Assembly: GCF_038024105.1 (NCBI RefSeq)
Contig: NZ_CP150661.1
Location: forward strand, 1-64,000
DNA from: Polaribacter butkevichii
GTDB taxonomy: Bacteria; Bacteroidota; Bacteroidia; Flavobacteriales; Flavobacteriaceae
DNA length: 64,000 bases
Reading direction: 5' to 3'
The notes beneath the pieces are model-generated. The model saw nothing but the letters and a program-made list of their open reading frames with translations. It was not told the DNA's origin and did not search any database. The position numbers were made by a program, and so were the translations under genes. Position 1 is the stretch's first letter; every line of letters starts with the position of its first letter. Shown here in pieces: positions 8,786-64,000 of the stretch.

Positions 8786-8857
8786 GTTAAAAAGCGGTTA
8801 AAGTCAGTTAAAGTAGCGTTAAACAGCTTTTTTGAATTTGTTAAAATTGTATCTTTG
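8786..8857 (+). promoter_or_regulatory. degP promoter with phased GTTAAA array
   Basis: GTTAA(A) occurs at 8786, 8797, 8807 and 8818 (steps of 11, 10 and 11 bp) and again at 8840 (22 bp on), all in one orientation. A TAnnTTTG -7 box, TATCTTTG, is at 8850-8857, 23 bp before the degP ATG; the only TTTG upstream is at 8831, closer than the usual spacing. Direct repeats one helical turn apart are the classic binding arrangement of OmpR-family response regulators. The array is seen; the regulator is inferred. Confidence 0.65.
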
Positions 8858-8879: not shown

Positions 8880-10268
8880 ATGAAGAAAATTTTTGGTTTA
8901 TTAGGAATGGCCGTTTTAGGAGGCGCAGTTGCTTTAGGTGGCTATAAAATGTTTTTTGGAAATGAGGTAATTGTAAAAAACACAGTTTCTCAACCTTTGC
9001 AAACGGTCACGGCAAGTTATAATCCCGTCCTAAATAAAGCAAGCTCAATTGCAAATTCTATCGATTTTACAATTGCAGCAGAAAATAGTGTTCATGCAGT
9101 TGTTCACGTAAAAAATACGGCAATAAGGACACAAGTAAATCCGTTAGATATGTTTTTTGGAAACAGTAATGGAGGTAGACAATACGAGCAAGTAGGTACT
9201 GGTAGTGGTGTTATTATTTCACAAGATGGATACATTGTAACCAATAATCATGTTATTGATGGAGCAGCAGATTTAGAAATTACTTTAAACAATAAGCAAA
9301 AGTACAAAGCCAAATTAATTGGTACGGATAAAGAAAATGATATTGCATTGTTAAAAATTGATGCAGATATGGATTTACCTTACATTCCATTTGCAAATTC
9401 AGACAATATTAAAATAGGAGAGTGGGTATTGGCAGTTGGTAACCCTTATAACCTAACATCTACAGTAACTGCGGGTATTGTAAGTGCAAAGGGTAGAGAT
9501 TTAGAAGGAAATACAGCTATAGATTCTTTTATACAAACAGATGCAGCTGTAAATCCAGGAAATAGTGGAGGAGCTTTGGTAAATACACGTGGAGAATTGG
9601 TAGGAATTAATACTGCCATTACATCTAAAACAGGATCATTTATAGGGTATTCTTTTGCAGTACCATCTAACATTGCTAAAAAAGTAATTGATGATTTATT
9701 AGAATATGGTGCAGTACAAGAGGCTATTTTAGGGATTAATGTGGATAGCTCTAATGATGATATAGATGGAGTTAAAATTGCTTCTGTTACAGAAGATGGT
9801 GGTGCTAAAAATGCCGATTTAAAATCTGGAGATATAATTATGAAAGTAAACGATGTTAAGATTTCTAAATTCTCTGAGTTAAGAGGGCAGTTAACAGCAA
9901 AAAGACCCGGAGAAAATGTAAGTATTACGGTTGATAGAGATGGTGATGTAATTACTAAAACCGTTAAGTTAGGTAAGAAAAATTACTTTTTATCTAGAAG
10001 TTTAAATGTTACCTTAAAAGATTTAACTAAAAAAGACTTAAAAAAATATGATATTTCTGGAGGCGCAAAAATTTTGAAAAACGGGAATAGAAACTTAGAT
10101 TATTACGGAGTTAAAGAAGGATATATTATTACTAAAATTAATAAAAAAGAAGTGTTAGATGCTAATGCTGCAGCTAAAGCAATAGATGCTTCTTATGGAT
10201 CTGGAACCCCTATTTATATTGAGGTAATTAATTTAAAGGGAGAGGTAGAACGTTACGCTTTTAGATAA
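8880..10268 (+). CDS. DegP/HtrA periplasmic serine protease
   Basis: A trypsin-like protease and chaperone that degrades misfolded envelope proteins. The 462-residue protein starts with an N-terminal hydrophobic signal/anchor (5-26), then a protease domain with the triad His124 (TNNHVID), Asp154 (ENDIALLK) and Ser229 (GNSGG), then a PDZ domain (about 275-365) and a second, more divergent PDZ (about 375-462). ATG start; monocistronic, with a strong terminator 62 bp downstream. The phased GTTAAA array in its promoter suggests envelope-stress control. Confidence 0.94.
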   Translation: MKKIFGLLGMAVLGGAVALGGYKMFFGNEVIVKNTVSQPLQTVTASYNPVLNKASSIANSIDFTIAAENSVHAVVHVKNTAIRTQVNPLDMFFGNSNGGRQYEQVGTGSGVIISQDGYIVTNNHVIDGAADLEITLNNKQKYKAKLIGTDKENDIALLKIDADMDLPYIPFANSDNIKIGEWVLAVGNPYNLTSTVTAGIVSAKGRDLEGNTAIDSFIQTDAAVNPGNSGGALVNTRGELVGINTAITSKTGSFIGYSFAVPSNIAKKVIDDLLEYGAVQEAILGINVDSSNDDIDGVKIASVTEDGGAKNADLKSGDIIMKVNDVKISKFSELRGQLTAKRPGENVSITVDRDGDVITKTVKLGKKNYFLSRSLNVTLKDLTKKDLKKYDISGGAKILKNGNRNLDYYGVKEGYIITKINKKEVLDANAAAKAIDASYGSGTPIYIEVINLKGEVERYAFR

Positions 10269-56804: not shown

Positions 56805-58559
56805 TTAAATTTCTTTTTCTAAAAGTTGCTGATCATACAAGTTTTTGTAATAACCCTCTTGTGTTATTAGTTGATTATGAGTTCCTTGTTGTATGATTTT
56901 ACCATCGTCTAAAACAATAATTTTATCAGCATTTTTAGCAGAAGATATTCTATGACTAATTATAAAAGTGGTAATATTTTTAGAGATTCGTTCTAGATTA
57001 GATAATATTTTTTCTTCTGTTTCTGTGTCTACAGCAGACAAACAATCATCAAAAATTAATATTTTAGGTTTTTTAATAATTGCTCTAGCAATAGAAACAC
57101 GCTGCTTTTGTCCGCCAGAAAGGGTTACCCCACGTTCACCTAAAACGGTTTTATATCCGTTAGGAAAATCGACAATGTTTTTATGTACATCTGCATTTTT
57201 GGCTGCGGTTATAATTTCTGCTTCGGTAGCATCATCTTTACCAAATTTAATATTGTCTTCGATACTTTCTGAAAACAAAAATGGGTCTTGAGGTACAAAA
57301 CCAATCTGACTTCTAACATCATCTAAATTGGCATCTTTAATAGGCGTGTCGTCTAACAAAATAGTACCTACTTTTGTGTCGTATAACCTTGATATGAGTT
57401 CGATAATAGTAGATTTACCAGAACCTGTTCTTCCTAATATTGCAATTGTTTCTCCCGATTTTACAGAAAAATTAATGTTTTTTAAAGCGGTAATATTGGT
57501 GTCATCGTAGGTAAAGGTAACATCTTTAAAGGTAACATTTCCTTTTAATGTAAATGGAGCAGTATTTGTATTTTGTATTTCTGGTACTTGCTGTAAAAAT
57601 TCATTAATTCTTGCTTGCGAAGCTTCCGCTTGCTGTACCATAGAAGTTACCCAACCTACAACGGCAACGGGCCACGTTAAAATATTTACATAGAGCATAA
57701 ACTCAATGATAACTCCAATAGGAATTTCGTCATTAATATATAATTTTCCTCCAACATAAATAACAATAATGTTACTAATACCAATTAACAAAATCATTAA
57801 CGGAAAAAATAAAGCATTTGCTTTTTGCAGGTGAATGTTCTTTTCTTTGCTTTCATCTGCAATTTTATCAAAGTCTTTAATAATAGAAGTTTCAATTCCG
57901 TATGATTTAACCACATTTATACCTGAGAAAAATTCTTGGTTAAAGGTGGTTAATTTTGATAAATATTGTTGAACAACGGTACTTCTTTTATGTATTACTT
58001 TGCTTAACACAAATATAGAAATAGATAATAAAGGAAAAGGTATTAACGTATACATGGTTAGTTTTACGTTGATGCTAATCATTTGTGTAAAACCTACCGT
58101 AAAAGTTACAATCATATTTAGGCTATACATAACAGCTGGCCCAACATACATTCTTACTTTAGAAACATCTTCAGAAATTCTGTTCATTAAATCACCCGTT
58201 CTATTTTTCTTGTAGAAATTAAGTGATAGTCTTTGGTATTGTTGATAAATTTCATTTTTGAGATCGAATTCTATCAACCTTGAAGTCACAATAATAGTTT
58301 GTCTCATTACAAAAGTAAAAAAACCAGATAGTACTGCAACACCTACAATTATAAGCACATTTATTAGTAATTGATGTTGTACGGTTTCTAAATTAGTAAC
58401 GACTCCGTTTTGATAATCTTCAACAATATTTAAAGAATCACCTACAATTTGAGGGATTTTTAAGGCTAAAAATTTGGCTAAAATGGTAATTAAAATACCA
58501 ATTAATAATCGCCATTTATATTTAGAAAAGTACTTATTTACGTGTTGTAATTCTTTCAA
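56805..58559 (-). CDS. MsbA-like ABC exporter half-transporter
   Basis: A 584-residue fused permease-ATPase: six helices (about 18-310), then an NBD with Walker A GRTGSGKST, signature LSGGQKQRVSIA and Walker B ILIFDDCLSAVD. The catalytic glutamate that normally follows the Walker B aspartate is an aspartate here (DD instead of DE), as in the degenerate site of some heterodimeric exporters. Candidate for lipid A, drug or peptide export. The start is TTG at 58559, before KELQHVNKYF; the protein sequence matches the family from there. Confidence 0.9.
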   Translation of the reverse strand: MKELQHVNKYFSKYKWRLLIGILITILAKFLALKIPQIVGDSLNIVEDYQNGVVTNLETVQHQLLINVLIIVGVAVLSGFFTFVMRQTIIVTSRLIEFDLKNEIYQQYQRLSLNFYKKNRTGDLMNRISEDVSKVRMYVGPAVMYSLNMIVTFTVGFTQMISINVKLTMYTLIPFPLLSISIFVLSKVIHKRSTVVQQYLSKLTTFNQEFFSGINVVKSYGIETSIIKDFDKIADESKEKNIHLQKANALFFPLMILLIGISNIIVIYVGGKLYINDEIPIGVIIEFMLYVNILTWPVAVVGWVTSMVQQAEASQARINEFLQQVPEIQNTNTAPFTLKGNVTFKDVTFTYDDTNITALKNINFSVKSGETIAILGRTGSGKSTIIELISRLYDTKVGTILLDDTPIKDANLDDVRSQIGFVPQDPFLFSESIEDNIKFGKDDATEAEIITAAKNADVHKNIVDFPNGYKTVLGERGVTLSGGQKQRVSIARAIIKKPKILIFDDCLSAVDTETEEKILSNLERISKNITTFIISHRISSAKNADKIIVLDDGKIIQQGTHNQLITQEGYYKNLYDQQLLEKEI

Positions 58560-61573: not shown

Positions 61574-62170
61574 ATGATTGTAGGTTTAACAGGCGGAATA
61601 GGGAGTGGTAAAACAACTGTAGCAAATATCTTTGCTAAGTTTAATAATGTTGCTATTTATAATGCCGATTCTGAGGCTAAAAAATTAATGAATACATCGG
61701 TAGTACTTAAATCGAAAATTATTAAGGAGTTTGGAGTTGAATCTTACCTAAATAATCAATTAAATAGACCTTACATTGCCAATCTTGTTTTTAAAGATAA
61801 AAACAAACTAGCAACCTTAAATGCCATTGTACATCCAGAGGTTAAAAATCATTTTAAAGAATTTGTAAATCAACAAGACCATAAAGATTATGTAGTCTAT
61901 GAAAATGCTATTCTTTTTGAAAGTAATAGTAATTTAAAGTGCGATATAATTATTACTGTTTATGCACCACTTAATGTTAGAATAGAAAGAACAATGTTAA
62001 GAGATAATAGTTCTAAAACAGCTATAGAAAGCAGAATAAAAAATCAATGGTTAGAAGATAAAAAACTACTACAATCTAACTATATAATTAATAATTTGGA
62101 TGCAGAAAACACTCAAATTCAGGTTGTTAAAATCCATAATATTTTAACAGAAAAAAGCCGTTCAATTTAA
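61574..62170 (+). CDS. coaE: Dephospho-CoA kinase CoaE
   Basis: Adds the last phosphate in coenzyme A synthesis. The 198-residue protein begins GLTGGIGSGKTTVANIF (P-loop GGIGSGKT at about 6-13) and has the family's NADSEAKKLMN and the lid-like VIVVYAPLNVRIERTMLRDN-type segment (seen as ITVYAPLNVRIERTML). Length is normal. It abuts the YbbR gene and is followed by the regulated sensor kinase promoter. Confidence 0.95.
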   Translation: MIVGLTGGIGSGKTTVANIFAKFNNVAIYNADSEAKKLMNTSVVLKSKIIKEFGVESYLNNQLNRPYIANLVFKDKNKLATLNAIVHPEVKNHFKEFVNQQDHKDYVVYENAILFESNSNLKCDIIITVYAPLNVRIERTMLRDNSSKTAIESRIKNQWLEDKKLLQSNYIINNLDAENTQIQVVKIHNILTEKSRSI

Positions 62171-62187
62171 TTTTATTCAATAGGATT

Positions 62188-62269
62188 GTTAAATTACTCT
62201 TAAATTTAAAGTTATATTGTTAATTTAGGTTAAAAACAATAAAATCAATTTTTGAAAATCGTAACTTTG
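62188..62269 (+). promoter_or_regulatory. Sensor kinase promoter with GTTAA repeats
   Basis: GTTAAAT at 62188, GTTATA at 62211, GTTAAT at 62219 and GTTAAA at 62229 precede a TAnnTTTG box, TAACTTTG, at 62262-62269. The 62219 and 62229 sites are 10 bp apart and the last one is 33 bp before the box, almost as in the degP promoter (32 bp). The ATG at 62274 is only 4 bp after the box, so the transcript is probably leaderless. No TTTG sits at the usual -33 place, which would fit an activator-dependent promoter. Confidence 0.6.
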
Positions 62270-62273
62270 ATGT

Positions 62274-63863
62274 ATGGGTAAGAAGATGTTTGTTCTTATT
62301 GTTGTATTAATGAGCATTTCTTTAATTGGAATTATTGCTGTACAACTGTATTGGATTAATAACGCAGTAGCGAGTAAGAAAGAACAATTTAAAAATGATG
62401 TTCAAAAATCTTTGGGAAGTGTTTCTCAAAGGATTACCGATAAAGAGAATTTTTATTTAGAAAAAAAATACGAAGGTGTTATAGAAAACACTGTTTTAGC
62501 AGACGAAGCTCAAATTAAAAACTTTCTATTTCAAGAAATAGACACTGCAACAAATCAAAAATTTACTTATGGTGGTACCATTTTAGAAGAAAGTTTTAAA
62601 ATGCCTGTAGATTATCTAGATAATGAAACTGATTTTTTAGATAATGACACTATTATTTTTAAAAGAGTAACAGGTAAAAACGATTTTTTTCATTCTAGAA
62701 TTATTAAAGGTGCTGATAATTTATTTTCATCTAGTGATGAAAAAAGATTTTCGTTTACAAAACGATTAAAGAGTATTGAAAGAAGTGAATTTGCAGAAAT
62801 ATTTAGAAATATTAATAGTACAAAACCTATTCATAAAAGATTAAGTAATAGAGAGCTTAATGAAACCATAAAAGAAGAGCTAGAAAAACGAAATATTCAT
62901 TTAGAATTTAAATATGGTGTTTATAGTAATGATGGTTTAGCCACAAAATTAAAGTCGGGTTATTACACCATTAACAAAAAAAAGAGCTACCCTTATCCGC
63001 TTTTTTTTAAAGCAAATGGTGAGGTAGATTATGAGTTGTATATTACTTTTCCGGCAGAAAAAGAGCACATACTTTCTGGTATATCAGGTATTTTATCACT
63101 CTCAATATTTTTTATTTTAATTATTATAATCGCTTTTTCTAGTTCATTATACCAACTAATTAGGCAAAAGAAAATATCAGAAATTAAAACAGATTTTATT
63201 AATAATATGACACATGAGTTTAAAACACCTATTGCTACCATTAATCTGGCATTAGATTCTATTAAGAATCCAAAGATTATTAATGATAACGAAAAAGTGT
63301 TACGTTATGTGCAAATGATTAGAGACGAAAACAAAAGAATGCATTCTCAGGTTGAAAATGTATTAAGAATATCTCGATTAGAAAAAAATCAGATAGATAT
63401 TAGTAAGGAAACTATAGATATGCACGACACAATAGACGATGCAATTACACATGTTAGTTTACTAATACAAGATAGACAAGGAAGTTTAAATACACATTTT
63501 GAAGCATTAGTTACAGAAGTTCCAGGAAACGAATTTCATTTAACAAACGTAATTGTTAATATGTTAGAAAATGCTTTAAAATATTCTGCGGATACACCAA
63601 AAATTGATGTGTATACAGAAAGCACAGATAAATTCTTTATCTTAAAAATAAAGGATCAAGGAATTGGAATGAGTAAAATAGTTCAAAAACAAGTTTTTGA
63701 TAAATTTTATAGAGAACAAAAAGGAAACATTCATGATGTTAAAGGGCATGGGCTAGGTTTGGCTTATGTAAAAGAAATTATAGAAAAACATCATGGAACT
63801 GTTTTTGTTGAAAGTGAAAAAGGAAAAGGAAGTACATTTACAGTAAAATTACCTTTAATTTAA
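62274..63863 (+). CDS. Sensor histidine kinase, RprX-like
   Basis: A 529-residue membrane kinase. Helices at about 5-27 and 268-293 bracket a 240-residue periplasmic sensor region with no recognised fold. The HisKA box NNMTHEFKTPIATINLALDS holds His314. The ATPase domain has N-box VNMLENALKYS (Asn433), G1 DQGIGM (about 461-466) and G2 GHGLGLAYVKEI. It resembles RprX of Bacteroides, an envelope stress kinase. The response regulator gene follows 11 bp later. Confidence 0.94.
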   Translation: MGKKMFVLIVVLMSISLIGIIAVQLYWINNAVASKKEQFKNDVQKSLGSVSQRITDKENFYLEKKYEGVIENTVLADEAQIKNFLFQEIDTATNQKFTYGGTILEESFKMPVDYLDNETDFLDNDTIIFKRVTGKNDFFHSRIIKGADNLFSSSDEKRFSFTKRLKSIERSEFAEIFRNINSTKPIHKRLSNRELNETIKEELEKRNIHLEFKYGVYSNDGLATKLKSGYYTINKKKSYPYPLFFKANGEVDYELYITFPAEKEHILSGISGILSLSIFFILIIIIAFSSSLYQLIRQKKISEIKTDFINNMTHEFKTPIATINLALDSIKNPKIINDNEKVLRYVQMIRDENKRMHSQVENVLRISRLEKNQIDISKETIDMHDTIDDAITHVSLLIQDRQGSLNTHFEALVTEVPGNEFHLTNVIVNMLENALKYSADTPKIDVYTESTDKFFILKIKDQGIGMSKIVQKQVFDKFYREQKGNIHDVKGHGLGLAYVKEIIEKHHGTVFVESEKGKGSTFTVKLPLI

Positions 63864-63874
63864 AAAGTATAACA

Positions 63875-64000
63875 ATGGGAAGTAAAAAAATTTTATTAGT
63901 TGAAGACGATCCAAATTTTGGAACCGTTTTAAAAGATTATTTAGCATTAAACGATTACAATGTAACACATGCTAAAGATGGTATAGAAGGATTAATTATG
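63875..64000 (+). CDS. Response regulator, RprY-like (partial)
   Basis: The first 42 residues of a receiver domain, cut by the window end. MGSKKILLVEDDPNFGTVLK begins with the acidic EDD pocket; the phosphate-accepting Asp and any DNA-binding domain lie beyond the window. Its place 11 bp after the sensor kinase gene makes it the cognate regulator. An OmpR-type DNA-binding domain is expected but not seen. Confidence 0.9.
   Translation, partial: MGSKKILLVEDDPNFGTVLKDYLALNDYNVTHAKDGIEGLIM

Follow-up and report, generated by a model that had tools for sequence, protein, structure and literature searches.

We propose that the RprY-like response regulator of Polaribacter butkevichii binds direct GTTAA repeats and is predicted to switch on both its own kinase–regulator operon and degP, a reading that we hold to be probable. 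Judged from promoter sequences across the Flavobacteriaceae, control of degP and of its own operon by this regulator is likely. With an operator defined by sequence and set in a fixed promoter register, the regulon becomes testable for a regulator present in 391 of the 396 family genomes that are at least 95 % complete, and an understudied bacterial family would thereby gain a testable envelope-stress circuit.

The kinase and degP promoters of the window

The window, i.e. the whole 64,000 nt stretch of contig NZ_CP150661.1 analysed here, ends within a two-component system. Its kinase gene (62274–63863) is separated from coaE (61574–62170) by an intergenic gap of 103 bp, in which GTTAA starts at 62188, 62219 and 62229. 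The features at this locus and at degP are as follows.

8786–8822, forward strand: four phased GTTAA units (8786, 8797, 8807 and 8818) upstream of degP, read from the sequence
8840–8857, forward strand: degP promoter with an extra GTTAA (8840–8844) and the −7 box TATCTTTG (8850–8857)
8880–10268, forward strand: DegP/HtrA-like serine protease, whose Trypsin_2 and PDZ domains score above the Pfam cut-off
62188–62203, forward strand: distal unit, GTTAA (62188–62192) and degenerate CTTAA (62199–62203), lying three helical turns upstream of the main pair
62219–62233, forward strand: main direct repeat GTTAA-N5-GTTAA, the predicted regulator site; the pair is kept in family promoters
62262–62269, forward strand: −7 box TAACTTTG, placed 28 bp downstream of the repeat and ending 4 nt short of the ATG
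62274–63863, forward strand: RprX-like sensor histidine kinase of 529 aa (ORF with HisKA and HATPase_c, and orthologues in the family)
63875–64000, forward strand: opening part of the gene for the RprY-like response regulator (OmpR/PhoB type); the gene runs on to 64573 in the genome

The GTTAA-N5-GTTAA that an earlier note had described at 62219 and 62229, before the RprX/RprY-like system, was confirmed in the sequence. The note had let the repeat end 33 bp before TAACTTTG, which has to be corrected, i.e. the second unit starts 33 bp and ends 28 bp before the box. The near-identical spacing that it saw at degP holds, with 28 bp at the kinase operon vs 27 bp at degP, where TATCTTTG is counted from the end of the last phased unit. 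By eye, an arrangement similar to the distal GTTAA and CTTAA recurs in near relatives (L065–L069). For the window's kinase, the prediction is a leaderless mRNA whose start falls on the ATG or beside it.

Among NCBIfam models, the degP product scored best with the Do-family TIGR02037, at 371.7 bits below the cut-off of 416.2, and ‘DegP-like’ is therefore the careful name. The best model for the regulator was RprY (NF051850, equivalog; 277.9 bits, E 5.8e-83, top of the 94 families listed), so that the label RprX/RprY-like is apt, though the score lies below the curated cut-off of 370 bits. The structural model of the kinase sensor domain (pLDDT 89) bears a weak resemblance to other extracytoplasmic sensor domains.

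Promoter anchoring and conservation in the family

On its own, GTTAA-N5-GTTAA occurs three times in the window against 0.91 expected, and at least three matches were seen in 7 of 100 shuffles. The remaining N5 match (57939–57953), inside an ABC transporter gene, was dropped. In the organism's own 4.08 Mb genome, the bare GTTAA-N5/6-GTTAA was not enriched over the reversed pattern used as control (67 vs 104 matches) and is therefore useless as a regulon finder without a promoter anchor; a three-unit pattern likewise gave three matches in both the genome and the control. When anchored by TANNTTTG at 22–34 bp, the pattern matched three times vs zero in the control, each match being exactly 51 bp long. 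These matches belong to degP, to the kinase–regulator system and to a cobalamin adenosyltransferase gene, beyond which secA lies at a distance of about 0.5 kb. Among the matches listed for the 40 genus genomes, the one at the cobalamin adenosyltransferase recurs in three members (G570, G573 and G574). The genome-wide search suggested in the earlier note is hence specific in its box-anchored form, while the bare repeat is no commoner than the control. As to whether matches lie at envelope genes, degP is one, and the cobalamin adenosyltransferase of the third match is no obvious envelope gene. The anchored pattern gave 231 matches vs 51 for the control in 120 family genomes, and 126 vs 33 in 40 genus genomes.

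For the kinase promoters, 110 loci (30 + 80) were reduced to 98 distinct ones after removal of nine with cut or late starts and three identical ones. A GTTAA pair at 10 or 11 bp within 150 nt upstream of the kinase was present in 92 of the 98, and the full pattern of pair and −7 box in 78. With 20–36 bp allowed, the gap between pair and box was 27 or 28 bp in all 78. The common form reads TTTTGTTAA, about six bases, GTTAAA, and then CTAAATGTTAAAAT directly before the −7 box, whose end lies 4 nt (43 promoters) or 5 nt (27 promoters) from the kinase ATG in 70 of the 78. Considering that the promoter box of Flavobacterium psychrophilum is placed at −12 to −5 (PMC9723704), a leaderless kinase mRNA is therefore predicted family-wide; the same source gives only 5.5 % of mapped mRNAs as leaderless in that species.

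In 64 of the 98 kinase promoters, a third GTTAA precedes the −7 box by 3–7 nt. This promoter-proximal unit is absent at the window's kinase promoter and present at its degP promoter (8840–8844). The proximity of kinase and degP is also conserved, with opposite strands in most cases: both lie on one contig in 83 family genomes, in 72 of these at most 57 kb apart.

Upstream DNA of degP was taken from 119 family genomes, of which 117 were usable after G048 and G062 had been dropped because of contig ends. A GTTAA pair at 10 or 11 bp was found in 112 of these 117, against a mean of 0.88 and a maximum of 5 over 100 dinucleotide shuffles, and neither the opposite strand nor the reversed word gave any pair at 10–12 bp. 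Pair spacings peaked at 10–12, 22–23, 33 and 43 bp, and four phased units were present in 26 of the 117. A TANNTTT box followed the last unit at 27 bp (61 promoters) or 28 bp (23 promoters), i.e. in 84 of 112, and no other offset was used by more than six. The register of 27 or 28 bp is the same as at the kinase, and therefore two unrelated genes keep one geometry. The strict anchored pattern captured only 11 degP promoters among the 150 matches listed of the 231, because many lack the final G of TANNTTTG.

Further candidate targets come from 36 hand-picked stretches (20 + 16), which are not random and are mostly recurrent-looking matches or near degP; two of the 20 (L219 and L220) are degP promoters. 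Pfam matches underlie only L221, L324, L211 and L317, the other assignments being made by sequence or similar genes. The candidates are a DUF3108 protein (L221; by sequence also L222, L321 and L322), a MoxR-type ATPase and DUF58 operon (L324; similar genes in L317–L320) and a TetR/ABC transporter/biotin-lipoyl-like operon (L211; similar in L208–L210, L212 and L213). Selected by eye as they were, these possible targets lean towards envelope functions. In the TetR/ABC/biotin-lipoyl-like operons (L208–L213), the GTTAA repeat is often followed by a palindrome like ATAGTATTACTAT over the promoter, and this palindrome may be a TetR site on which the stress site is stacked. No claim is made for L314–L316 (apparently coding DNA), L217 and L218 (leading to carbohydrate genes), L325 and L326 (no clear promoter) or L223 (no Pfam match).

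Regulator loss, paralogues and competing readings

Evidence for a link between regulator and repeat is also given by the genomes in which the regulator is missing. The kinase has an orthologue in 117 of 120 family genomes, and no regulator orthologue was found in seven genomes (G035, G058, G284, G322, G438, G521 and G363). Five of these seven also lack the repeat at degP and can be regarded as a natural experiment; it is present in G058 (80 % complete) and G363 (96 % complete). Where the regulator was detected, degP carries the repeat in 113 of 117 genomes (111 of 115 plus G312 and G432), the exceptions being G007, G023, G087 and G100. The association has a Fisher p of 1.1e-5, to be read with the fact that G322, G438 and G521 belong to one genus; three of the five co-losses thus fall into this genus, and the independent losses are therefore few. 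The autoregulation and the operator in common with degP that the earlier note had suggested accordingly gain strong support both from family-wide conservation and from the absence of the repeat at degP in these five genomes.

G103, a candidate for degP repeats without the kinase, was rejected as such: its regulator lies at the very start of a contig and was counted as present, the kinase probably having been cut off by the assembly. In G284, G438, G322 and G521 (L417–L420), the GTTAA repeats at degP are replaced by a sigma-54-like motif, seen by eye as TTGGCA(T/C)AGTTTTTG about 50 nt before the degP ATG, and degP has possibly been rewired to sigma-54 in these genomes. In G023, which has the regulator and no repeat, the degP promoter reads TGGCACAATTGTTGCC.

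Some relatives (L205–L207, genus matches) carry a paralogous two-component system, here called class B, with the kinase followed by the regulator. Its promoter, GTTAACGTGTGTTAAC, has the extended half-site GTTAAC (GTTAAC-N5-GTTAAC), and GTTAA-N5-GTTAA stands about 25–30 bp above TANNTTTG. The class B regulator is 40–42 % identical to the regulator treated so far (class A) and is also nearest to the RprY model (270.7 bits). The window's genome yielded no class B regulator, the next full-length relatives there being 33 and 30 % identical. The SMDV-I-KLRK stretch of the DNA-binding domain, which we take to be the recognition helix, is nearly identical in the regulators of both classes, which fits the half-site common to both.

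Outside the family, 27 class-level kinase loci were reduced to 16 after exclusion of 11 in which the match starts after residue 10. Upstream of these kinase relatives, a GTTAA pair was present in nine of 16 (shuffle mean 0.07), and the nine loci represent seven families, with L262, L264 and L272 from one genus. Since the kinases are only 34–37 % identical and may be class B-like, these pairs show the age of the motif rather than orthology.

In the mechanism that we favour, the kinase would sense an envelope signal and phosphorylate the regulator. Regulator molecules would then occupy the GTTAA units in head-to-tail order, with one helical turn from unit to unit; relative to the predicted start site, the occupied stretch would span about −55 to −41 at the operon and −76 to −40 at degP. 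From these upstream sites, RNA polymerase would be recruited. Positive feedback on the kinase–regulator operon would amplify the response, and DegP would handle damaged periplasmic proteins. With its four phased units, vs a single exact pair before the kinase–regulator operon, degP would be the target of higher cooperativity. Judged from degP as the target, the signal is probably envelope stress.

The same regulator could instead act on the same sites as a repressor, both promoters being held down until stress relieves them, as RprY of Porphyromonas gingivalis has been proposed to be a repressor (PMC3646045). Binding to the GTTAA just before the −7 box, as present in 64 of the 98 kinase promoters, would block polymerase. 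The conserved pair, however, lies upstream of the −33 region, where activators of the OmpR-type class typically bind, and the promoter-proximal unit is absent from the window's kinase promoter and occurs in this form in only two of 112 degP promoters; we thus regard repression as unlikely, if worth keeping in mind. Rather less probable still is that another OmpR-type regulator, e.g. the class B paralogue, binds the degP repeats. Such a regulator would have the GTTAAC-N5-GTTAAC of its own promoter, its nearness to RprY and its nearly unchanged DNA-binding stretch in its favour, yet the window's genome, in which no class B regulator was found, carries four units at degP, and it is the loss of class A that tracks the loss of the degP repeat.

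The GTTAA pair might also be an element of promoters in general that RNA polymerase itself reads, rather than a regulator site, as its distance to the −7 box is constant at two unrelated genes. This is highly improbable, given that many promoters would then be expected to carry it, whereas the anchored pattern averages only about two matches per genome (231 in 120 genomes) and the degP arrays reach four units (26 of 117). Chance in AT-rich DNA would agree with a bare pattern that does not exceed its control in the genome and is only mildly unusual in the window; it is refuted by the conservation counts, i.e. 112 of 117 degP promoters vs 0.88 in shuffles and 92 of 98 kinase promoters, and we consider it negligible.

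Comparison with known systems

In Bacteroides and Porphyromonas, as here, the kinase and regulator genes of RprX/RprY are adjacent, as reported for rprX/rprY of Bacteroides fragilis (PMC6032018). In EMSA, P. gingivalis RprY was shown to bind to its own promoter (PMC3646045), a result with which the conserved repeat at the operon's own promoter would be compatible. Its reported targets in the passages on P. gingivalis, i.e. cytosolic chaperones and sodium and oxidative-stress genes, with ahpC and nqrA, do not include degP, unlike the target predicted here, and no RprY operator motif was seen in these passages (PMC3646045, PMC5706477). In the open-licence literature as far as covered, with subscription papers outside its scope, neither an RprY operator nor two-component control of degP in flavobacteria was seen.

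Within the same family, the Flavobacteriaceae, F. psychrophilum has a sigma-54 stress regulon linked to chaperones, proteases and envelope stress (PMC9723704). It relies on −24/−12 promoters, unlike the system here, and has GroESL, DnaK, ClpB, Lon and Skp under its control; degP is not among the selected sigma-54 promoters printed in that paper (PMC9723704).

Like Cpx of Enterobacteria, the system described here would combine an OmpR-type regulator with a short direct repeat at the promoter from which its own operon is read. Among the targets of Cpx is degP, and the operator geometry common to the kinase promoter and degP would be compatible with degP as an output here. The operators themselves differ, the CpxR site being given as GTAAA(N)4-8GTAAA (PMC3158067) and the half-site here being GTTAA, in GTTAA-N5/6-GTTAA. 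The earlier idea of a flavobacterial counterpart of Cpx therefore stands as an analogy and falls as a claim of membership, with 109.9 bits for the regulator on the CpxR model (NF008199, cut-off 341) and 91.6 bits for the kinase on the CpxA model (NF007007, cut-off 486), both far below. A wider scenario, about which our doubts somewhat outweigh our confidence, is that of an ancient GTTAA–RprY circuit of the Bacteroidia, near-universal in the Flavobacteriaceae, that would have converged on the Cpx design with a near-identical operator and degP as output; degP would have been rewired to sigma-54 where the regulator was lost, and the class B duplicate would form a second arm with an extended half-site. 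On the best reading, the regulator is an RprY-related protein of the OmpR type that would be Cpx-like in its working and no member of Cpx.
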